Of a stretch of DNA of 64,000 nucleotides, positions 29,866 to 40,754 are shown one piece after another. Each line of letters opens with the position of its first letter. The stretch's first letter is position 1. The notes under the pieces were generated by a model. It saw only the letters and a list, made by a program, of their open reading frames with translations. It was not told the origin of the DNA and did no database searches. The position numbers were made by a program, and so were the translations under genes. The DNA is taken from positions 1 to 64,000 of the forward strand of contig JAUNAC010000001.1 in NCBI GenBank assembly GCA_030527825.1, in the 5' to 3' direction. This DNA is from Lautropia sp. (GTDB taxonomy: Bacteria; Pseudomonadota; Gammaproteobacteria; Burkholderiales; Burkholderiaceae_E).

Positions 29866-29879
29866 TTGACATTCGTCAA
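29866..29879. promoter_or_regulatory. FNR/DNR-type box 1 upstream of nosZ
   Basis: TTGAC-N4-GTCAA is a perfect palindrome of the CRP/FNR superfamily type used by DNR and NnrR regulators in denitrification. Its centre is exactly 20 bases upstream of that of box 2. This predicts induction of the nos operon under low oxygen and nitric oxide. Confidence 0.75.
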
Positions 29880-29885
29880 CTGTGA

Positions 29886-29899
29886 TTGATGAATGTCAA
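29886..29899. promoter_or_regulatory. FNR/DNR-type box 2 upstream of nosZ
   Basis: TTGAT-N4-GTCAA is a near-perfect half-FNR, half-DNR type palindrome. Its centre (29892.5) is about 41.5 bases before a start site near 29934 set by the -10-like TACGCT at 29922-29927. That is the classical class II activator position. Confidence 0.75.
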
Positions 29900-29966: not shown

Positions 29967-31925
29967 ATGAGCCTCGAAGCACAGGACCCCCATGGAGAAA
30001 AAGCATCCGCGGGCATTGGCAGGCGTCGCTTCCTGAATGCGGCGGCCGTGCTTGGCATCAGCGGTGCAGCACTGGCGGGCTGCAAGGAGGAACGCGCCAG
30101 TAACGAAGGTGGCTCTGCCAACGGTTCTTTGCAACCTTCGTCCCAGACACAAGAATCCTCAGTGGGCGGAGCCGGGTCAGTCGATATCAAACCGGGGCAG
30201 CTCGATACACACTATGGCCTGTGGAGCAGCGGCCATACCGGCGATGCCCGGATTCTGGGCATTCCATCGGGACGCGAGCTATTGCGCATCCCTTGTTTCG
30301 TGCCGGATGCACTCACCGGCTGGGGCATCACCAACGAGTCCAAGGCAGTCATGGGCACGAAGCCCGACGGGACACTGCGCTATACCGTTGGTGACACGCA
30401 CCATGTACATGCGTCTTACAAGGACGGGGTCTACGACGGCAAATACGCCTGGATCAATGACAAGATCAATGCGCGCATTGCCCGCATCCGGCTGGACTAC
30501 ATGGTGTGCGACAAGATCACCAAGCTGCCCAATGTGCAAGGATTTCACGGCATCTTTCCGGACAAGCGGGATCCGGTCAAGCCGGAAATCAACTACACCA
30601 CCCGGGTGTTCTGCGGACAGGAGTTCCGGATTCCACAACCGAACAAAGGTGCAAATGTCGAAGACGCCACCAAATACGGTGCCCTGTTCAGCTGCGTCGA
30701 TGCCCAGACCATGGAAGTGCGCTGGCAGGTTCGCATCAACGGCAACTGCGATCTGGTGGCCACATCATTTGACGGTAAACTGGCTGCCACCAACCAGTAC
30801 AACGTAGAGGAAGGCGATTACTACACCGACATGATGTCGCTGGAGAGGGACAGCTGCCTGTTCTTCAACGTAGCCAGGATCGAACAGGCTGTCAAAGAGG
30901 GCAAGTTCACAACCATCGGCGATTCAAAGGTTCCGGTGGTCGAAGGTCGGATGGACTACAACAAGGATCCGAAGACGGCCCTGGTGTGCAGGGTGTCGGT
31001 GCCCAAGAACCCTCACGGCGTCAATGCGACACCTGATGGCAAATATTTCATCTGCTCCGGCAAGCTGTCTCCGACCTGCACCGTCATCGAGCTGCAGAAG
31101 GTACTTGACTGGTTCGATGGCAAACTTGACGATCCGGACAAGGCGATCATTGCCGAACCGGAAGTGGGCCTGGGACCACTGCACACCACCTTCGACGGTC
31201 GCGGCAATGCATACACCACACTGTTTCTCGACAGCCAGGTCTGCAAGTGGAACATTGACAAGGCCATCAGAAAGTATGCCGGCGACAAATCCCTGAATCC
31301 AATCATCCACAAGCTGGACGTCATGTACCAGCCGGGTCACATCAATGCGTCCTGCGCGGAGACAAAGGCGGCGGATGGCATCTGGATGGCGGTGGGCAAC
31401 AAGTTCTCGAAGGACCGTTTCCTGCCCGTGGGACCACTGCACCCGGAAAACGATCAGCTTGTCGACATCACGGGCGAACAGATGGTTCTGGCACACGACA
31501 ACGCCGTACGGCCCGAGCCGCACGACTTCGTCATCATACCGCGCGACTGGCTGCAGACGAAACAGGTCTACGACATGAAGGACTTCCCCATGGCGACCAA
31601 GGACGCCAGCGAGTCCGGCATCAAGCGTGAAGGCAACAAGGTCACCATAAAAATGGTGTCGTTCGCGCCCAGTTATGAGCCCTCAGAATTGAATCTGAAA
31701 GTCGGTGACGAGGTGACCCTGTATCTGACCAACATCGACAAGGTGGAAGACCTGACACACGGGTTTGCGATTCCCGAATACAACATCCAGTTCATTGTGA
31801 ACCCGCAGGAAACCCGCTCCGTCACGTTCAAGGTCGACCGGCCCGGTCTCTTCTGGTTCTACTGCACCAACTTCTGCCATGCACTTCACCTGGAAATGCG
31901 AGGCCGGATGATGGTCGAACCCTAA
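29967..31925 (+). CDS. nosZ: nitrous-oxide reductase (clade I)
   Basis: NosZ reduces N2O to N2 in the periplasm. It begins with a Tat signal: GRRRFLNAAAVLG at about residues 13-25, ending near LAGC. The beta-propeller carries the CuZ histidines, for example in GDTHHVHAS near residue 140. The C-terminal cupredoxin domain has CuA ligands in CTNFCHALHLEM (Cys633, Cys637, His641, Met644) and an upstream His in THGFAIP. Length of 652 is normal. AAGGAGA lies 5 bases before the ATG. It is the first gene of the operon, unlike the common order in which nosR leads. Confidence 0.97.
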   Translation: MSLEAQDPHGEKASAGIGRRRFLNAAAVLGISGAALAGCKEERASNEGGSANGSLQPSSQTQESSVGGAGSVDIKPGQLDTHYGLWSSGHTGDARILGIPSGRELLRIPCFVPDALTGWGITNESKAVMGTKPDGTLRYTVGDTHHVHASYKDGVYDGKYAWINDKINARIARIRLDYMVCDKITKLPNVQGFHGIFPDKRDPVKPEINYTTRVFCGQEFRIPQPNKGANVEDATKYGALFSCVDAQTMEVRWQVRINGNCDLVATSFDGKLAATNQYNVEEGDYYTDMMSLERDSCLFFNVARIEQAVKEGKFTTIGDSKVPVVEGRMDYNKDPKTALVCRVSVPKNPHGVNATPDGKYFICSGKLSPTCTVIELQKVLDWFDGKLDDPDKAIIAEPEVGLGPLHTTFDGRGNAYTTLFLDSQVCKWNIDKAIRKYAGDKSLNPIIHKLDVMYQPGHINASCAETKAADGIWMAVGNKFSKDRFLPVGPLHPENDQLVDITGEQMVLAHDNAVRPEPHDFVIIPRDWLQTKQVYDMKDFPMATKDASESGIKREGNKVTIKMVSFAPSYEPSELNLKVGDEVTLYLTNIDKVEDLTHGFAIPEYNIQFIVNPQETRSVTFKVDRPGLFWFYCTNFCHALHLEMRGRMMVEP

Positions 31926-32042: not shown

Positions 32043-34679
32043 ATGAACTGGACATCTTGTGGGAAACGGCTGTTGACGGCCATCGTCTTCGGTCTGCTGT
32101 CCCTGAATGTATCGGCCCGGCCTGCAGCCGGCGCCGGCGGGTCACAGGCATACGAAGCACAGCTTCCCCCCGACCTGGGCACCGCCCGGGACATGTGCGC
32201 CCTGGTTCCCTGCCAGGACGTCTTTCCGAAGGCAACCTCCTTCTCCGAGCGCAAGGGGCAGCCCCCCTATGTCGAAGCGCTGGGCGGTCCGGACGGCAGG
32301 CAGGTGCTGGGCTATGTGATGCTGTCGACCGACATCACCGATACGCCCGCCTATTCCGGCAAGCCGGTGGTGACCCTGATCGGCATGGATCGTGATGGAA
32401 AATATGTCGGCATCAAGGTGCTCAAGCACTCCGAGCCGATCCTGCTGCTGGGGATCCCGGAGTCAGCCCTGCTCAAATTCAATGATCAATACATCGGTCG
32501 TTCAGTCAAGGACAATATCGAAGTAGGCCAGTCCCGTCCCGAGGACGGTGTGGTGGGCGTGGATGCCATCTCGGGCGCGACCGTCACGGTCGTGGCGCAG
32601 AATCAGGTCATCATGACTTCCGGGGCAGCCGTCGCCCGTCAGGTCGGCATCATCAAACCGATCGAACGCAAGCCCGTCGCTTATGTCCAGCCGTCCGCCG
32701 GACAAACATCCCCCGACTGGGACACGCTGGTCAGGCAGGGGGCCATCAGCCGGCTGCTGGTTCAGCCGCAGCAAGTCGGTCTGGATAACACCGGTTCTCC
32801 TTTCATTGAGCTATGGTTCGGTTCACTCAATTCGCCCATCGTGGGTCCCGCCATCCTGGGTGAGCGGAGCTGGCAGCACCTGCACAACAACCTCAAGGAG
32901 GGCGAGAACGCCCTGTTCATCATCCGCACCCAGGGCCGCGAGTCCTTCAAGGGTTCCGGGTTCGTCCGCGGCGGCATCTATGATCGCATTCAAGTTCATC
33001 AGGGCAACGAAGCGTTCACCTTCCGGGATACCGATGCACTGAACCTGTACGGCATTGCCGCCCGCGGCGCACCCGCCTATTCCGAATCAGGCATCTTCAT
33101 TGTCCGCTCCCGGGCCTTTTCCGCCGCCTACCCCTGGCGGCTCAGCTTCCTGGGCAACAAGCGCGATCGCAGCACTGGTGCCAAAACCTTCACGGCCTTC
33201 GAGAGCGAATACTGGCTACCCGCACAGTACCTGATCGGTGGACATCCGGAAGTGATCCGCCCCACCCCAACCTGGCTGAAGCTCTGGAAAGCCAGACGGT
33301 GGCAATTGATCATCTTCAGCATCATGCTGGTCAGCATTGCGGTTGTCTACGCTTTCCGGGAACGCCTCACGCGACTGTCGTCACGCCGAAACAAGTGGCC
33401 GGTCAACGGATTCAAGTACCCCTTCTGGATCATATGCATCACCTGGGTAGGATTCGGACTGCTCGCCCAACCATCTGTGACCCAGGTGCTTACCTGGTTC
33501 CATGCAATCCTGTTCAAGTGGGAATGGGCACTGTTTCTGAGCGACCCCTTTCTCTTCCTGTTCTGGATCTTCATCTTCATCACGGTCTTTTTATTCGGGC
33601 GTGGCCTGTTCTGTGGCTGGGCCTGTCCATTCGGCTCACTGCAGGAGCTTCTGCACGTCGTTGCGGAAAGAATCGGCCTCGGACGCTACCAGTTTTTGCT
33701 GCCCGAAAAATGGCATCACCGTCTCAAATGGGTCAAATACGCCGTTTTTCTCGGTTTGCTGGTGGTCTCGCTCTTCTCAATGGCTGATGCCGAGAAACTG
33801 GCCGAAATCGAACCTTTCAAGACCACATTCCTGGTCGGCATCACCCATCGCAGCTGGCCTTATGGCACGTTTGTCCTGGCGATCCTCCTGCTGGCAGTAT
33901 TCACCGAACGTCCCTACTGCAAGTACATCTGCCCACTGGGCGCCTCACTCGCCATGCCCAGTACCTTCCGGTGGTTTGGCCTCAAACGCAAGCCGGACTG
34001 CAACAAGTGCAAGGCATGCGCCAAGGATTGCGGGGCGCTGGCCATCAACCAGGATGGACAGATCGACCATCGCGAATGCCTGCACTGCCTGGACTGCCTG
34101 ATTCTCTACAGCGACGCGCATACCTGTCCGCCTCTGGCCAAAGAGCGCAAGCTGCGTGAGCGCAATGGCCAGCCCCTGACCGCCATTGGCAGCGATGGTT
34201 ATTTCATCCCTCTGATTCCCGAAACACCAACCCCCGCACAGCTACCGGTAAAAGGTACCGACCCGCGCTGGCCCAGTCCTCGCGTCCATCCGCAAGTGGA
34301 GGAATTGCAGGGCGTGCGCCGACTACTGGGAGAAATACTTGACCACCTCTGGCCATTCAGCCGCCATGGCTGGCAGGCCAGTCACCTGACAACAGCAGCA
34401 GGAGCCGCACTGGCCATCGGGACCACCATAGCCTGGATCCTGTCTACCCAGGGCAGCGTCTCCCCGCTGGGCATCATTGGTATCTGGTTCGGGTGGAGTC
34501 TGTTTGAAATACGGATACGTCTGCTGAGTAAACGCTATGTCAAAGACGGGCCATGGTGGCAAAAAACCTACCGGCAGGCCAACGTCATGGACATGATCAG
34601 CTACGTCACATTCAAGAACCTGCTCATAGGTGCAGTCCTGTTCTGGCTCTTGAGTCAGGCCCATACCCTGATTCTCTGA
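32043..34679 (+). CDS. nosR: NosR/NirI-type membrane iron-sulfur flavoprotein
   Basis: NosR is needed for nosZ expression and for electron supply to NosZ. The 878-residue protein has a signal peptide, a periplasmic FMN-binding domain with the flavin attachment motif SGATVTV near residue 177, membrane helices, two cysteine-rich motifs at membrane ends (CGWACPFGS near 523 and CKYICPLGA near 626), and a bis-[4Fe-4S] ferredoxin domain (CNKCKACAKDCG near 653, then CLHCLDC). The C-terminal part after residue about 710 carries two more membrane helices, making it longer than the usual 700-780 residues. It follows nosZ after 117 bases. Confidence 0.95.
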   Translation: MNWTSCGKRLLTAIVFGLLSLNVSARPAAGAGGSQAYEAQLPPDLGTARDMCALVPCQDVFPKATSFSERKGQPPYVEALGGPDGRQVLGYVMLSTDITDTPAYSGKPVVTLIGMDRDGKYVGIKVLKHSEPILLLGIPESALLKFNDQYIGRSVKDNIEVGQSRPEDGVVGVDAISGATVTVVAQNQVIMTSGAAVARQVGIIKPIERKPVAYVQPSAGQTSPDWDTLVRQGAISRLLVQPQQVGLDNTGSPFIELWFGSLNSPIVGPAILGERSWQHLHNNLKEGENALFIIRTQGRESFKGSGFVRGGIYDRIQVHQGNEAFTFRDTDALNLYGIAARGAPAYSESGIFIVRSRAFSAAYPWRLSFLGNKRDRSTGAKTFTAFESEYWLPAQYLIGGHPEVIRPTPTWLKLWKARRWQLIIFSIMLVSIAVVYAFRERLTRLSSRRNKWPVNGFKYPFWIICITWVGFGLLAQPSVTQVLTWFHAILFKWEWALFLSDPFLFLFWIFIFITVFLFGRGLFCGWACPFGSLQELLHVVAERIGLGRYQFLLPEKWHHRLKWVKYAVFLGLLVVSLFSMADAEKLAEIEPFKTTFLVGITHRSWPYGTFVLAILLLAVFTERPYCKYICPLGASLAMPSTFRWFGLKRKPDCNKCKACAKDCGALAINQDGQIDHRECLHCLDCLILYSDAHTCPPLAKERKLRERNGQPLTAIGSDGYFIPLIPETPTPAQLPVKGTDPRWPSPRVHPQVEELQGVRRLLGEILDHLWPFSRHGWQASHLTTAAGAALAIGTTIAWILSTQGSVSPLGIIGIWFGWSLFEIRIRLLSKRYVKDGPWWQKTYRQANVMDMISYVTFKNLLIGAVLFWLLSQAHTLIL

Positions 34680-34684
34680 TCATC

Positions 34685-36028
34685 ATGATGAGTTGCCATG
34701 ACCAGCTGCGCAAGAAACACACGTCCGCACACCCGATATGGGTGCTGATGCTGGCACTTGATCTGGCGGTGTACTCCCACTCGCTGCCTGCAGCGACATT
34801 CACCGTCCATCCTGGTGAAAGGATCCAGAGCGCCATAAAACAGGCTTCATCCGGTGATGAAGTTGTGATCATGCGTGGCCACTATGCAGAAAACCTGCGC
34901 ATCGACAGACCCGTGGTCTTGCGCGGCATCGGGCGCCCGACGATCAGCGGGGGCAATCATGACGATACCATTCGAGTGACATCACCAGATGTCATCATTG
35001 AGGGACTGATTGTCTCGGATTCCGGTGACAGCCTGCTCAGACAGAACGCAGGCATCTATATCCAGCCTGGCGCCCACCGAACCATCGTGCGCTCCTGCTT
35101 CCTGAGCTACAACCTGTTCGGCCTCTGGATTGAAAAATCCAACGACGTGCAGGTGCTCAACAACAACATCACCGGCAAACGCAACTACGACAGTGCCCGG
35201 CGCGGAAACGGTGTCCAGCTCTATAACACCAAGGGCGCCCGAATCATCGGCAACGAGATCAGCTTCGTGCGTGACGCACTCTACGTCGATGTGTCCCACC
35301 ATGCCGTCTTCCGGCGGAACCGGCTGCACCATAGCCGCTACGGAACACACTACATGAATTCTTACTACAACCTGTGGGAAGACAACGATACCTGGAACAA
35401 CCGTGGCGGCCTGGCCTTGATGGAAGTTCGCAACCAGACCATCCGCCATAACCGGGCCTGGAACAACGCAGACCATGGCATCATGCTGCGTACGCTGCAA
35501 GATTCGACGGTAGAGAACAACTGGGTGGCGGGGAACGGGCGGGGGCTCTTCATCTACGATGTCGAGTACGTGCGACTGACCGGCAATGTGGTCAGCGGCA
35601 ACCGGACCGGTGTGCATCTGTCCGGTTCGCCACGCAATGAAGTCGACAACAATGATTTCGTAGAAAACCGCCAGCAGGTCAAATACGCTGGCACCCGGGA
35701 CATGAACTGGGGCGGCCCCAAGGGGAACTACTGGAGCAACTACCGGGGCTGGGACCGCAATGATGATGGCCGTGGCGATATTCCTTACGAGGCCAACGAC
35801 ATGGTTGATCGGCTGACCTGGCGCTATCCAGGCGTTCGCCTGCTGATGGCCAGCCCGGCCGTACAGGCACTGCGCATGGTCGGGCAGCAATTCCCGATCC
35901 TGCGTGTACCCAGCATCGTGGAGCAACGGCCCCGCATGACACCGCAGACGACTGCCTGGGCGACCTGGCTCACCGGCGTCAGGAACAATCTGTTCAACGC
36001 ACCCGAGGGCCTGCGCCATGACCATTGA
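34685..36028 (+). CDS. nosD: periplasmic copper-processing protein NosD
   Basis: NosD helps assemble the CuZ centre of NosZ together with the NosFY ABC transporter. It is a right-handed beta-helix protein of the CASH/NosD family: repeated N-x-N-type coils are evident throughout (NNNITGKRN, NVVSGNRTG, NNDFVENRQ). A signal peptide ends near LPAA. I chose the ATG at 34685, just after the nosR stop codon; the open frame further upstream overlaps nosR. The 447-residue length fits the family. Confidence 0.93.
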   Translation: MMSCHDQLRKKHTSAHPIWVLMLALDLAVYSHSLPAATFTVHPGERIQSAIKQASSGDEVVIMRGHYAENLRIDRPVVLRGIGRPTISGGNHDDTIRVTSPDVIIEGLIVSDSGDSLLRQNAGIYIQPGAHRTIVRSCFLSYNLFGLWIEKSNDVQVLNNNITGKRNYDSARRGNGVQLYNTKGARIIGNEISFVRDALYVDVSHHAVFRRNRLHHSRYGTHYMNSYYNLWEDNDTWNNRGGLALMEVRNQTIRHNRAWNNADHGIMLRTLQDSTVENNWVAGNGRGLFIYDVEYVRLTGNVVSGNRTGVHLSGSPRNEVDNNDFVENRQQVKYAGTRDMNWGGPKGNYWSNYRGWDRNDDGRGDIPYEANDMVDRLTWRYPGVRLLMASPAVQALRMVGQQFPILRVPSIVEQRPRMTPQTTAWATWLTGVRNNLFNAPEGLRHDH

Positions 36029-37019
36029 GCCGCAGACCCCCACACCAACCCGGATCAATCCATCGACCGATTCCGCCTCCATCATCCGGCTGCAGAATGT
36101 GACCCGGCGCTTCGGAAACTTCACTGCTGTCGATGATGTGTCACTCGATATCCGGGCAGGAGAGGTATTTGGCCTGATCGGCCACAACGGCGCCGGCAAG
36201 AGCACATTGTTCAAGATCATGCTCGGCCTGCTGGCCCCTACCACAGGCAGCATCCGCATCGACGGAGAACCAGTCGGGCAGGCCGGTGCCCTGCCCGTGC
36301 GCCGCCGCATCGGCTATCTGCCCGAGAACGTGGCACTCTGGGACAATCTGAGCGGACTGGAAACGCTGGCATTCTTTGCCCGGCTCAAGGGGCTGGATAC
36401 ACATGGATGCCGTCCCCTGCTGGACAGGGTGGGGCTGATGCGGGCCGCTGACCTCCCGGTGCGGGCCTATTCCAAGGGAATGCGCCAGCGCCTGGGCTTT
36501 GCCCAGGCCCTCCAGGGGGATCCGCACGTACTGTTCCTTGACGAGCCCACGACGGGCCTGGATCCACGTGCGATCCACTTCTTCTGGGACACGCTGGCCG
36601 AACTGCGTGACCGCGGACTGACCATCGTGCTGACCTCACATATTCTTGCCGAGCTGCAGAACCGGGTGGATCGTGTTGCCGTCATGGCCAATGGCCGAAT
36701 TCAGGCGCTGGGCTCACTGTCCGATCTGCGTACGGGATTTGATCTGCCGCTGCACGTCCAGGTGCAGCTGACCCCTGGCACCCAGACCGCGACGATTGCC
36801 CGCTGGCTGCAGTCCCTGCCCGACGAGCTGGCCCGCCTGCCGGTACAGCCCACGCCCACGGGTGGTGCAGTGCTCATCGCAGTACCTCGCGTGCACAAAA
36901 TGCGGCTGCTCCAGTCTCTGCTGTCCACGCAGGAATATGTGGCCGACATCCAGATTCATGAGCCATCGCTGGAGGACATGTTCTTTTCCCAATCCAGTAC
37001 AGGAGCATCACTGCAATGA
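36018..37019 (+). CDS. nosF: NosF, ATP-binding subunit of the nos ABC transporter
   Basis: NosF powers the NosDFY system that delivers sulfur or copper species for CuZ assembly. Walker A is GHNGAGKST near residue 55, the ABC signature is YSKGMRQRLGF near residue 151, and Walker B is VLFLDEPT. The start overlaps the nosD end by 11 bases and the stop overlaps nosY. The 333-residue length includes a roughly 25-residue N-terminal extension before the first ABC strand. Confidence 0.95.
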   Translation: MTIEPQTPTPTRINPSTDSASIIRLQNVTRRFGNFTAVDDVSLDIRAGEVFGLIGHNGAGKSTLFKIMLGLLAPTTGSIRIDGEPVGQAGALPVRRRIGYLPENVALWDNLSGLETLAFFARLKGLDTHGCRPLLDRVGLMRAADLPVRAYSKGMRQRLGFAQALQGDPHVLFLDEPTTGLDPRAIHFFWDTLAELRDRGLTIVLTSHILAELQNRVDRVAVMANGRIQALGSLSDLRTGFDLPLHVQVQLTPGTQTATIARWLQSLPDELARLPVQPTPTGGAVLIAVPRVHKMRLLQSLLSTQEYVADIQIHEPSLEDMFFSQSSTGASLQ

Positions 37020-37834
37020 TCCAGCCGGGACAGATCGTCACCATTGCCGCCAAAGAATTCCGTGATCGGCTGCGCAATCGCTGGGTCCTTGCTGTTGCCC
37101 TGGTGTTTGCGGTGTTCTCGCTGGTGATCACCTATGCGGGCGGTGCCCAGCAAGGTACCGTCGGGTTGCGTTCTCTAGAATTCACCATCACCAGTCTGGT
37201 CAGCCTTGTGATCTATCTGGTACCGCTGATTGCCCTGTTGCTCGGATTTGATGCCATCGTCGGCGAGCGCGAGCGCGGCTCACTGGATCTGCTGCTGGCT
37301 TATCCGATCACCCGGGGTGAGTTGCTGATCGGCAAATATCTTGGCCTGACCATGGCCATGGCACTGGCCATGCTCGCCGGGCTGGCCACTGTGGGAGTTG
37401 CCCTGACCTGGCAGTTCGGTGTCAAAGCACTATTTCATTATGCTGGTTTTGTGCTGAGCACACTGCTGATGGGCATGTCATTTCTCAGCCTGGCAATGCT
37501 GGTATCCACGATTGCCCGTGATCGGACCCGGGCATCGGGTGCCGCCATTGCGCTTTGGTTCCTGTTCGTTCTGGTCTTCGATCTGCTGTTGCTGGGCGTT
37601 CTTGTCGGTACTGCCGGACATTATGGCGGTGCCATCTTCCCGTATCTGCTGCTGCTTAATCCAACGGATATCTTTCGCATCCTGAATGTGTTTTCCCTGG
37701 AGGATGTGCGAAGTGCCTATGGTCTGGTCAACATGGTGCCACCTCTGCTGTCGAACATGAGCGTGCTGAGTGCTGCCATGCTGGTCTGGATCGTGATGCC
37801 CCTTGCTCTTGCCAATTGGAGGTTCCGCCCATGA
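37016..37834 (+). CDS. nosY: NosY, membrane subunit of the nos ABC transporter
   Basis: The 272-residue protein has six membrane helices and the ABC-2 permease segment FDAIVGERERGSLDLLLAYPI that couples to NosF. It starts with an ATGA overlap with nosF and ends overlapping the nosL start. Confidence 0.95.
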   Translation: MIQPGQIVTIAAKEFRDRLRNRWVLAVALVFAVFSLVITYAGGAQQGTVGLRSLEFTITSLVSLVIYLVPLIALLLGFDAIVGERERGSLDLLLAYPITRGELLIGKYLGLTMAMALAMLAGLATVGVALTWQFGVKALFHYAGFVLSTLLMGMSFLSLAMLVSTIARDRTRASGAAIALWFLFVLVFDLLLLGVLVGTAGHYGGAIFPYLLLLNPTDIFRILNVFSLEDVRSAYGLVNMVPPLLSNMSVLSAAMLVWIVMPLALANWRFRP

Positions 37835-38433
37835 GTACACCACGTCTGCATTATCGCTGCCGCTGCTGCGCTAGCTGGCATCAAACGGATGCCCCGCGTG
37901 CCGGTCGGCGCCAACTGCTCGGCGCAATGATGGCCCTTGCAACCCTGCCCGTCCTGCATGGCTGTGACAAGGCCGTGAAGCAGAACAGTCTGATTGCCCC
38001 GGTAGAAATCAGCCAGGATACGGCATGTGAACTGGATGGCATGTTGCTGGCTGACTATCCGGGCCCCAAAGGACAGATGCATTTTGCCGATACCCACGAA
38101 CCCGCCTTCTATTGCGACACCACGGAAGTGCTCAACACGCTGCTGCATCCCGAAGAAGTGCACAAGATCACCGCGGTCTATGTTCAGGACATGGGCAAAG
38201 GCAAGGCCGACTGGGACAATCCCCGGGGGCACTGGATCGATGCCCGCACAGCCATTTATGTGCAAGGCAGCCGGCGCCACGGCTCAATGGGGCCAACTTA
38301 TGGCAGCTTCAGTCTCGAACAGGACGCCCGGGACTTTGTCGCCCAGTATGGTGGGCGGATTCTGCGGATGGCAGACATCACGCCTGAGATGGTGGACCTG
38401 CGCGGGGGCGCCAATATGGATCAGAGCATGTGA
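37831..38433 (+). CDS. nosL: NosL, copper chaperone lipoprotein
   Basis: NosL binds Cu(I) and delivers it to apo-NosZ or NosD. The gene starts at the ATG 37831 with GGAGG 8 bases upstream; its ATG overlaps the nosY stop. A lipobox is in LHGC near residue 45, after an unusually long 26-residue, Cys- and Arg-rich stretch (RCRCCASWHQ). The copper site region reads CELDGMLLADYPGPKGQMHF. The C-terminal TYGSFSLEQDARDFVAQYGG block is typical. The long N-terminal stretch with three cysteines before the signal core is odd; a later start is possible. Confidence 0.9.
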   Translation: MSTPRLHYRCRCCASWHQTDAPRAGRRQLLGAMMALATLPVLHGCDKAVKQNSLIAPVEISQDTACELDGMLLADYPGPKGQMHFADTHEPAFYCDTTEVLNTLLHPEEVHKITAVYVQDMGKGKADWDNPRGHWIDARTAIYVQGSRRHGSMGPTYGSFSLEQDARDFVAQYGGRILRMADITPEMVDLRGGANMDQSM

Positions 38434-39311
38434 TGATGAACAAACCGGTGATCGGCGCCTCGCGTCCCCTGTCAGCCCAGACCATCGGCACACTCTGGCA
38501 GGCACACCCTTTTTTTTCCCCTGATGGTCTGGGCCGCCAGGCAAATCCGGCCATCCATGCAGCATGGGCACCCCGCCAGCATATCGCCCCCGCAGCACCT
38601 GCCGTCACCCGCACCAGTGGTCGGCAGGCGCAGGCTGGATTCGAAGAGGTTACGCTGCTGCTGGACGGGGATCTGATGGTCCACACGACCATACCTGACG
38701 CGGGCAACCAAACCAATACCCTGGTGCAAACAGGTGATGTTCTCTGGAATGGCGCCGGCAGCGGTATATTCACCGAAAAACGGGTCGGCCCCGTCCTGAA
38801 CCGGACGGGAGGCATCCTGTCGGCTCTGACCCTGTGGATCAATCTGCCCGCCCGGTTCAAGGCGAGCGCCCCCTGTCTGCAGCATCTGCGAAGTGCCCTG
38901 GTCCCCACAATTGCACTGGATGGCGAGGCCGGGAGCATGCGCCCGATTGCCGGGCGGTTCAAGGACTGTGAAGGCCCCATCGAAACGGTACAGCCGCTCC
39001 AGCTCTGGGATATACATGTCCGGGCAGGCTCCAAGGTATCGCTGCCGCTGCCTGCGGGGTGGTATGCCCAGATACTGGTGCTGGCCGGCTGCCTGGACAT
39101 GGCATTCTGGCCCGATCCCCTACACGCCCCCCAACTGGTACTTCTGGATGCCGCTGGCGATGGTGTGACCTTCACCGCCCGGGAAGCGGCACATCTGGTA
39201 CTCCTGTGCTGCGAACCGCTGAACGAACCGGTGGCCATCCATGAACAACTGGTCCTGAACACATCGTCACAGCTGGCAGAGACCCGAACACGCCTCGCGA
39301 GCGCAGACTGA
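38433..39311 (+). CDS. pirin-like protein lacking the metal ligands
   Basis: The protein aligns with pirins along both cupin domains. Conserved stretches include LTLWINLPA, RPIAGRF followed by EGPIETVQPL, VSLPLPAGWYAQ, and EPLNEPV near the C-terminus. The usual RHPHRGFE motif reads GRQAQAGFE, and the usual GIVHSE motif reads GIFTEK. All four iron ligands (three His and one Glu) are therefore missing. Candidate starts are GTG 38430, ATG 38433 and ATG 38436, all overlapping or abutting the nosL stop, so it is coupled to the nos operon. A metal-free binding or regulatory role is more likely than dioxygenase activity. Its role in N2O respiration is unknown. Confidence 0.85.
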   Translation: MMNKPVIGASRPLSAQTIGTLWQAHPFFSPDGLGRQANPAIHAAWAPRQHIAPAAPAVTRTSGRQAQAGFEEVTLLLDGDLMVHTTIPDAGNQTNTLVQTGDVLWNGAGSGIFTEKRVGPVLNRTGGILSALTLWINLPARFKASAPCLQHLRSALVPTIALDGEAGSMRPIAGRFKDCEGPIETVQPLQLWDIHVRAGSKVSLPLPAGWYAQILVLAGCLDMAFWPDPLHAPQLVLLDAAGDGVTFTAREAAHLVLLCCEPLNEPVAIHEQLVLNTSSQLAETRTRLASAD

Positions 39312-39326
39312 CGATCATCGGGACAC

Positions 39327-40754
39327 TCAGGTTTGTACAAGCGCCGCGCGGGCAATGACTCGACTGGTCAGATCAGTCGCCTCCCAATGTGGCATGTGGC
39401 CGATTCCTGGCAGCAGATACAGCGCGGTGCCCGGCGGGGCGTTCAGTGCCTGCTGCCAAGGGATAATGGCGTCTTCGCGACCATGAATCAGGGACAGAGG
39501 AACGCTCAACCCGGACAAAGTGCCTGTGATGGAATGGCTCTGGCGGCCGGTGACATCCACAATGCTATCCATCAGCTGGTAAAGCTGCGGCCGGGCAGAT
39601 GACAGGCGGGACCACATCGCCCGCAAGGCGGCAGGAGCACTGCGGTAACGGCGAACAGTCAGTCGCGACAGCGCATCGGCCAGTGTCTGTTCGTCACTGG
39701 CCTCCAGAACCGACAGGAGAAAATCCCGGTTAACCTCCTCCCCAAGTCCGCTGGGCGCCAACAATACCAGCCCCGCCAATTCCGCACGTCGATCACACAG
39801 GGCTGCCAGTTCAGCCGCTAACAGTCCACCGAACGAATGTCCCACGAACAACCAGGGAGGCTGCAGACGGGCGATCGACGCGGGTAGGCCAGCAACCATA
39901 TCCGGGCATATTGCCCGCAGGGCTGCATCCAATGCGGACACTGCCTGAGAAACGGTTTCAACCGAGGCTGAGCTGTACCCGTGGCCGGGCAAATCCAGCG
40001 CCAGGACATTCAATCCAGATCTGACCAGGCTCAAAGCCGTGGCCGACCAGACGTTTACGTCGCCAAACATGCCGTGCAGCAATACCACTACCGGCAGCAT
40101 ATTGGGCTGACGCAGACGGGACGGCCAGTATTTCAAATGTATGTTGCCGAACGGCGTGGGCAACAAGGTCTGCTCAGCAGCAGGGTGCGCACTAGTAGGT
40201 TTTTCAGATGGAAGTGAAGACGGCTTCTCGGGCAACACACGTTGCATGAAGACGAGATCCCGCCAACGGCCGAATTTCCGGCCCACTTCCGGCAACAGGC
40301 CCGTCTGGACGAAACCCAGACGCTGGTGCAGACGCCGTGAACCCGCATTGTCCGCATCGATGGCCCCCACCATCACATGGACGCCCATGGACTGCGCAAT
40401 CGGGAACAGGGCCTTGATAAGGGCACTGCCCACGCCACGCCCCTGATACGCCTGATGCACATGGACGCTGTGTTCTACCGTGTGACGGTAACCAGGCCAG
40501 TTACCACGAAAAGGGCCAAAACTGGCATAGCCAAGAATGGCACGACGCTCATCGACCCACTGGCCATGGGCTGCCTCGGCCACCAGCACGGGAAACCCCG
40601 CTTCGGTCCGGGATCTGAACCAGGACAACCGCTCATCCAGATCGACAGGTGCTTCAGTGTAGACCGCGGTCGATCCAGCAATCAGGGCATTGAAGATGTC
40701 CAGAATGGCCGGCAGATCCTCAACCCGCGCCTGCCGGATCAGAAACGGCTGCAT
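39327..40754 (-). CDS. fusion of GNAT acetyltransferase and alpha/beta hydrolase
   Basis: The 475-residue protein joins two enzymes. Residues 1-165 are a GNAT N-acetyltransferase of the phosphinothricin-acetyltransferase type (IRQARVEDLPAILDIFN, then VHVHQAYQGRGVGSALIKAL, the acetyl-CoA loop, then HQRLGFVQTG). A Pro- and Ser-rich linker follows at about 175-200. Residues 205-475 are an alpha/beta hydrolase with oxyanion LLHGMFGD, nucleophile GHSFGGL, and final GIGHMPHWE. The frame is continuous, so it is a real fusion or a fused reading frame. It overlaps the stop codon of the upstream secreted-protein gene by one base, so the two are co-translated. Substrates are unknown. Confidence 0.85.
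   Translation of the reverse strand: MQPFLIRQARVEDLPAILDIFNALIAGSTAVYTEAPVDLDERLSWFRSRTEAGFPVLVAEAAHGQWVDERRAILGYASFGPFRGNWPGYRHTVEHSVHVHQAYQGRGVGSALIKALFPIAQSMGVHVMVGAIDADNAGSRRLHQRLGFVQTGLLPEVGRKFGRWRDLVFMQRVLPEKPSSLPSEKPTSAHPAAEQTLLPTPFGNIHLKYWPSRLRQPNMLPVVVLLHGMFGDVNVWSATALSLVRSGLNVLALDLPGHGYSSASVETVSQAVSALDAALRAICPDMVAGLPASIARLQPPWLFVGHSFGGLLAAELAALCDRRAELAGLVLLAPSGLGEEVNRDFLLSVLEASDEQTLADALSRLTVRRYRSAPAALRAMWSRLSSARPQLYQLMDSIVDVTGRQSHSITGTLSGLSVPLSLIHGREDAIIPWQQALNAPPGTALYLLPGIGHMPHWEATDLTSRVIARAALVQT

Follow-up and report, generated by a model that had tools for sequence, protein, structure and literature searches.

A pirin-fold protein with a lost iron site encoded at the 3' end of the nos operon of Lautropia and some Ottowia

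The nos operon and its last gene

The main biological sink of N2O is nitrous oxide reductase, an enzyme whose full complement of helper genes is still being worked out. The window, which is the whole stretch of 64,000 nucleotides analysed here, comes from a 2.8 Mb genome of the oral genus Lautropia and carries a nos operon in the order nosZ-nosR-nosD-nosF-nosY-nosL-pirin, with the whole set on the + strand. The following features have been assigned to this operon and to its last gene, which we call nos-pirin.

29866-29879, weaker FNR-like copy
29886..29899, + strand, FNR/DNR-like site TTGATGAATGTCAA, 1 mismatch, about 70 nt 5' of nosZ (consensus match only)
29967..31925, + strand, nosZ, Tat-type (clade I) nitrous oxide reductase (TIGR04244, 929.9 bits, cut-off 625)
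32043..34679, + strand, nosR, FMN-binding and Fe-S membrane protein (NF046105, 6.4e-181, under the curated cut-off)
34673..36028, + strand, nosD (TIGR04247, 1.1e-124; listed ORF from 34553, start provisional)
36018..37019, + strand, nosF, ABC ATPase
37016..37834, + strand, nosY, ABC permease
37831..38433, + strand, nosL (Pfam NosL, 1.8e-47; its stop shares 1 nt with the nos-pirin ATG)
38433..39311, + strand, nos-pirin, 292-aa pirin-fold bicupin without metal site, the last gene of the operon
38625..38645, + strand, former HxH ligand motif, now QAQAGFE (residues 65 and 67 are Q)
38763..38780, + strand, former H.E ligand motif, now GIFTEK (residue 114 is T, residue 116 is K)

A sequence-only reading of the window had named the gene at 38433-39311 as the last of a nos operon; these coordinates are confirmed, and nosZ, nosR, nosD, nosF, nosY and nosL upstream of it are real. 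The 292-aa ORF begins with the ATG at 38433, the A of which is also the last base of the nosL stop TGA (38431-38433), and its stop ends at 39311. Since the starts of the homologues align with the second Met of the window protein (38436), the gene may in fact begin there, with 2 nt separating it from nosL. The distance from nosL to the pirin gene ranges from about 1 to 230 nt in relatives; the overlap, which had been read as a pointer to the role of the gene, is thus not conserved, so that a special translational coupling of the two genes has been rejected and no special argument for NosL remains.

The two FNR-like palindromes lie 20 nt apart, both before nosZ. In the entire window, 35 FNR-like sites with at most 2 mismatches were counted versus 22 expected, and none of 100 shuffles reached as many. 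The site about 70 nt before nosZ suggests that the nos operon is switched on without oxygen, and nos-pirin would presumably be turned on with the rest of the operon. Beyond nos-pirin, on the opposite strand, a 475-aa ORF (39327-40754) resembles a GNAT acetyltransferase fused to an alpha/beta hydrolase; its relatives are found near the nos operon in other Lautropia, and the two halves sometimes match separately.

Family, fold and the replaced iron ligands

In the window protein the Pirin_C domain scored 46.4 bits (cut-off 27) and the N-terminal Pirin domain was weak (15.9 bits, under the cut-off of 26.1), while nine of nine aligned homologues matched both models (best E-value for Pirin 3e-12). 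By descent and fold, and by its two cupin domains, nos-pirin belongs to the pirin family (PF02678 and PF05726). Similarity to pirin had been claimed for both cupin domains; this is right for the similarity but does not extend to the metal site, whose four ligand positions all belong to the N-terminal cupin.

A bicupin fold was predicted by AlphaFold2 (pLDDT 89, pTM 0.88). YhaK-type pirins of Yersinia pestis (7te5, 7tg5) and Acinetobacter baumannii (6d0p) are similar to nos-pirin across the full length (E-values 1.8e-38 and 7e-32, respectively), the former being its best solved relative by sequence, and the model superposes on them with TM-scores of 0.92 (7te5, along the whole length) and 0.91. 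Nos-pirin also has the bicupin fold in common with two metal-binding pirins, human pirin (TM 0.81-0.82) and E. coli YhhW (TM 0.58). Because the first long strand starts at residue 6 and no signal peptide was seen in the window protein, nos-pirin is presumably cytosolic.

The iron ligands of human pirin are His56, His58, His101 and Glu103 (PMC11304471); the corresponding residues of the window protein are Q, Q, T and K. The earlier claim that all four ligands are replaced (HPH by QAQ, and H.E within GIFTEK, at residues 65, 67, 114 and 116) was therefore correct. The pirins of Yersinia and Acinetobacter retain both HPH and H.E, whereas the window protein retains neither and sits in a nos operon. 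HHHE was found in 63 of 64 other Burkholderiales pirins when the ligand positions were aligned, and the source genome itself has a second, normal YhaK-type pirin with HPHRGFE, GILHEE and all four ligands (L041:8561-9412; G000 contig 4, 219563-220372).

The four ligand positions of the 11 nos-pirins known to us, including that of the window, read QQTK, QQTT, TMTQ, QRYD, QMTT, VQTK, RHCQ, QQHQ, QFRE, QMRE and QMRE, so that at most one ligand is retained in any of them. The replacing residues differ by position (Q/T/V/R, Q/M/R/H/F, T/Y/C/H/R and K/T/Q/D/E, respectively) and vary by species; this variation speaks against a replacement metal site, and likewise against a new active site under strict conservation, at these positions.

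Loss of the metal site is not in itself new among pirins. E. coli YhaK (2vec) is described as a metal-less bicupin with three His missing and without quercetinase activity, in the account of Gurmu 2009 given in PMC10376123, and its subclass is named redox sensitive in the title of the former. The pirin His ligands are absent from both proteins, but nos-pirin has neither a conserved reactive Cys nor a close sequence relationship to E. coli YhaK, which is shorter, gives only a distant fold match (TM 0.57) and was not among the sequence matches of the window protein at E-values up to 10. Membership in the E. coli YhaK subgroup has thus been rejected by sequence and fold, and the difference in TM-score (0.92 for Yersinia versus 0.57) makes it most likely that the metal was lost separately in the two cases.

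Distribution, linkage and history

Pirin-like genes after nosL were sought in other genomes, and ten further homologues have been found, five in Lautropia and five in Ottowia, all intact and with no more than one ligand kept. With the window copy, all 11 directly follow nosL or a second nosL. Among nine Lautropia genomes, six have nosZ above the family cut-off, and in all six nos-pirin comes directly after nosL in the synteny nosZRDFYL-pirin; the three genomes lacking nosZ also lack nos-pirin, an absence that is provisional for the two that are less than 90% complete. The two outcomes that had been named in advance as refuting the sequence-only reading, namely His ligands kept in nos-linked homologues and a lone decaying copy with frameshifts, did not occur.

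A scan of genome contigs at the species level gave seven loci, exclusively in Lautropia or Ottowia, with the copies outside Lautropia belonging to Ottowia sp. oral taxon 894 and two MAGs (L051 and L054). The search of the Ottowia genus set, which includes the two MAGs, added two more genomes with nos-pirin. Since the patterns of the contig scan were derived from Lautropia and missed two divergent Ottowia copies, other distant nos-pirins may exist.

No pirin was present in 36 control nos loci (35 from other Burkholderiales and one from Ottowia G438, which has a different NosZ type) or in 29 NosL loci of the wider class, a few control contigs being short or ending before nosL. A general linkage of nosL and pirin elsewhere has thus been rejected for these 65 loci. 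In 399 genomes of the order, nos-pirins scored more than 480 bits to their own profile and the best other pirin 242 bits; no further nos-pirin was found in 369 genomes of the class at an E-value of 1e-75, and a plasmid search gave ordinary pirins only (about 31-36% identity). Nos-pirin shares linkage to nosZ with the known accessory proteins NosR, NosD, NosF, NosY, NosL and NosX/ApbE, but it belongs to none of their families.

All five Ottowia genomes with nos-pirin (L051, L054, L055, L109 and L110) have a second NosL-like gene between nosL and the pirin gene, encoding CPVCGMYPAR or a close motif and often a His-rich C-terminal tail. Such a gene follows nosL in some other Burkholderiales too (L158, L160, L161 and L166), and it was not found beside nos in Lautropia. 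The N-terminus of the window NosL (37831-37990) has a Cys cluster, RCRCC, preceding the RR/lipobox signal, and CxC(C)-like motifs are present in most NosL of the nos-pirin clade, and some of the pirin-less sisters have them too (RCAC in L159 and L161); the cluster could possibly be a cytosolic metal or interaction motif.

In the tree, the 11 nos-pirins form one clade with 100/100 support and a stem branch of 1.38 changes per site. The ten available NosZ sequences from the same loci also form one clade (100/100), whose sister consists of five pirin-less Burkholderiales NosZ. One Ottowia NosZ (L086, from the same genome as L051) nests inside the Lautropia NosZ, a placement suggesting that the nos operon has passed from one genus to the other. 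Since both nos-pirin and the linked NosZ are monophyletic, the pirin appears to have joined one nos lineage once and to have moved with the operon between genera. On the simplest reading of these trees, a single nos operon would have captured a YhaK-type pirin once, and operon and pirin would then have been transferred together.

Within the genus, identity to the window copy is 45-55% for nos-pirin and 79-84% for NosZ; by this comparison, nos-pirin changes fast yet remains intact. The closest pair, two Ottowia copies that are 80% identical, gave a dN of 0.12, a dS of 0.67 and a dN/dS of 0.18, and more distant pairs gave rough dN/dS ratios of 0.31-0.50 with dS near saturation. That the gene is under selection had been proposed from the window copy, and the ratio in the closest pair, together with the 11 intact ORFs, shows retention under purifying selection and has led us to reject decay to a pseudogene. 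No nos locus of the linked lineage is missing nos-pirin.

Proposed role of nos-pirin and alternative explanations

The reading that we favour, tentatively and at slightly under an even chance, starts from a long YhaK-like pirin, as in Yersinia and Acinetobacter, which would have been captured once at the 3' end of nosZRDFYL, would then have lost its iron site, and would have been retained thereafter as a cytosolic, non-catalytic partner of the Nos machinery. What is known of normal bacterial pirins is chiefly that they bind other proteins, a proposed switch being the oxidation state of their iron, Fe(II)/Fe(III); their partners include redox enzymes, namely pyruvate dehydrogenase E1 in Serratia and, in Bacteroides fragilis, the Fe-S enzyme PFOR and others (PMC11304471). 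With the iron gone, nos-pirin would be an adaptor without this switch, i.e., a constitutive one. Since fold, linkage and selection have been kept while the iron site is gone, we infer, as the best-supported guess for its protein-binding role, a constitutive adaptor for a cytosol-facing Nos component, and candidate contacts would be NosR through its Fe-S part, the ATPase NosF, and NosZ or NosL as folded Tat precursors. With the same restrained confidence, nos-pirin may represent a new class of metal-independent nos accessory proteins that act, facing the cytosol, on the machinery of Nos assembly or electron transfer (NosR, NosFY or Tat precursors), gained once in the Lautropia/Ottowia nos lineage and transferred with the operon.

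Several points count against the adaptor. Genetic linkage indicates a common pathway, not contact. Nos-pirin evolves fast, and many of its conserved columns are those of the core of any ordinary pirin. N2O is presumably reduced without it by the nearest sister operons that lack a pirin, so that nos-pirin cannot be generally essential.

The sequence-only reading had stated that no nos accessory protein of this type was known to be described, and in the open-licence papers searched we have likewise found neither a connection between pirins and nosL or nosZ nor a nos operon in which a pirin without metal is fixed. Nos-pirin is probably a helper of N2O reduction that works without metal and is new to the literature. 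It is a testable candidate for such a helper, in a genus with cultured species, and is absent from the other denitrifiers examined here. Besides E. coli YhaK, it is a second retained pirin with a lost metal site, which asks what a pirin does without iron.

An emptied cupin pocket could instead bind an organic ligand (a metabolite, a flavin or a signal), making nos-pirin a metal-independent binding protein or enzyme, a sensor or a co-regulator of nos transcription. In its favour, the residues around the pocket have undergone systematic remodelling (from GDVQWMTAG to GDVLWxGxG, plus further clade-specific changes), and regulatory roles have been linked to pirins (PMC10376123, PMC11304471). We consider this explanation unlikely, since the substitutes at the ligand positions vary freely, unlike the residues of a conserved binding site.

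It is distinctly unlikely that nos-pirin acts outside N2O reduction, e.g., in directing central carbon metabolism during denitrification, for which nos would provide a convenient anaerobic promoter. Other bacterial pirins do modulate pyruvate metabolism (PMC11304471), but nos-pirin is absent from the Lautropia that lack nosZ and follows one nos lineage across genera.

NosL is a copper chaperone, and the loading of NosZ with copper is periplasmic. A role in NosZ biogenesis had been suggested for nos-pirin and may apply; copper handling and redox sensing, which had been suggested with it, are not supported, since no Cys, His or Met position except the start Met is invariant across the 11 proteins. 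Adjacency to nosL within the nos operon, and Gln and Met that could coordinate weakly at some ligand positions, would fit the handling of copper in NosZ biogenesis or the binding of another metal by replacement ligands. This is quite improbable, as the replacing residues differ among species, no conserved set of Cys, His or Met is available, and no export signal was seen. A thiol-based sensor of redox state or NO, as proposed for E. coli YhaK, is very improbable: the precedent of three missing His and a subclass named redox sensitive (PMC10376123, citing Gurmu 2009) and the FNR-like site upstream of nosZ speak for it, but the label belongs to E. coli YhaK, which matches nos-pirin distantly in fold and not in sequence, and the commonest Cys column is filled in only six of the 11 nos-pirins. 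Fast evolution, ligand loss and the long stem branch would also be expected of a decaying passenger without function, an explanation that 11 intact ORFs in two genera, the presence of the gene in every nos locus of the lineage and a dN/dS of 0.18 at a dS of 0.67 render highly improbable.
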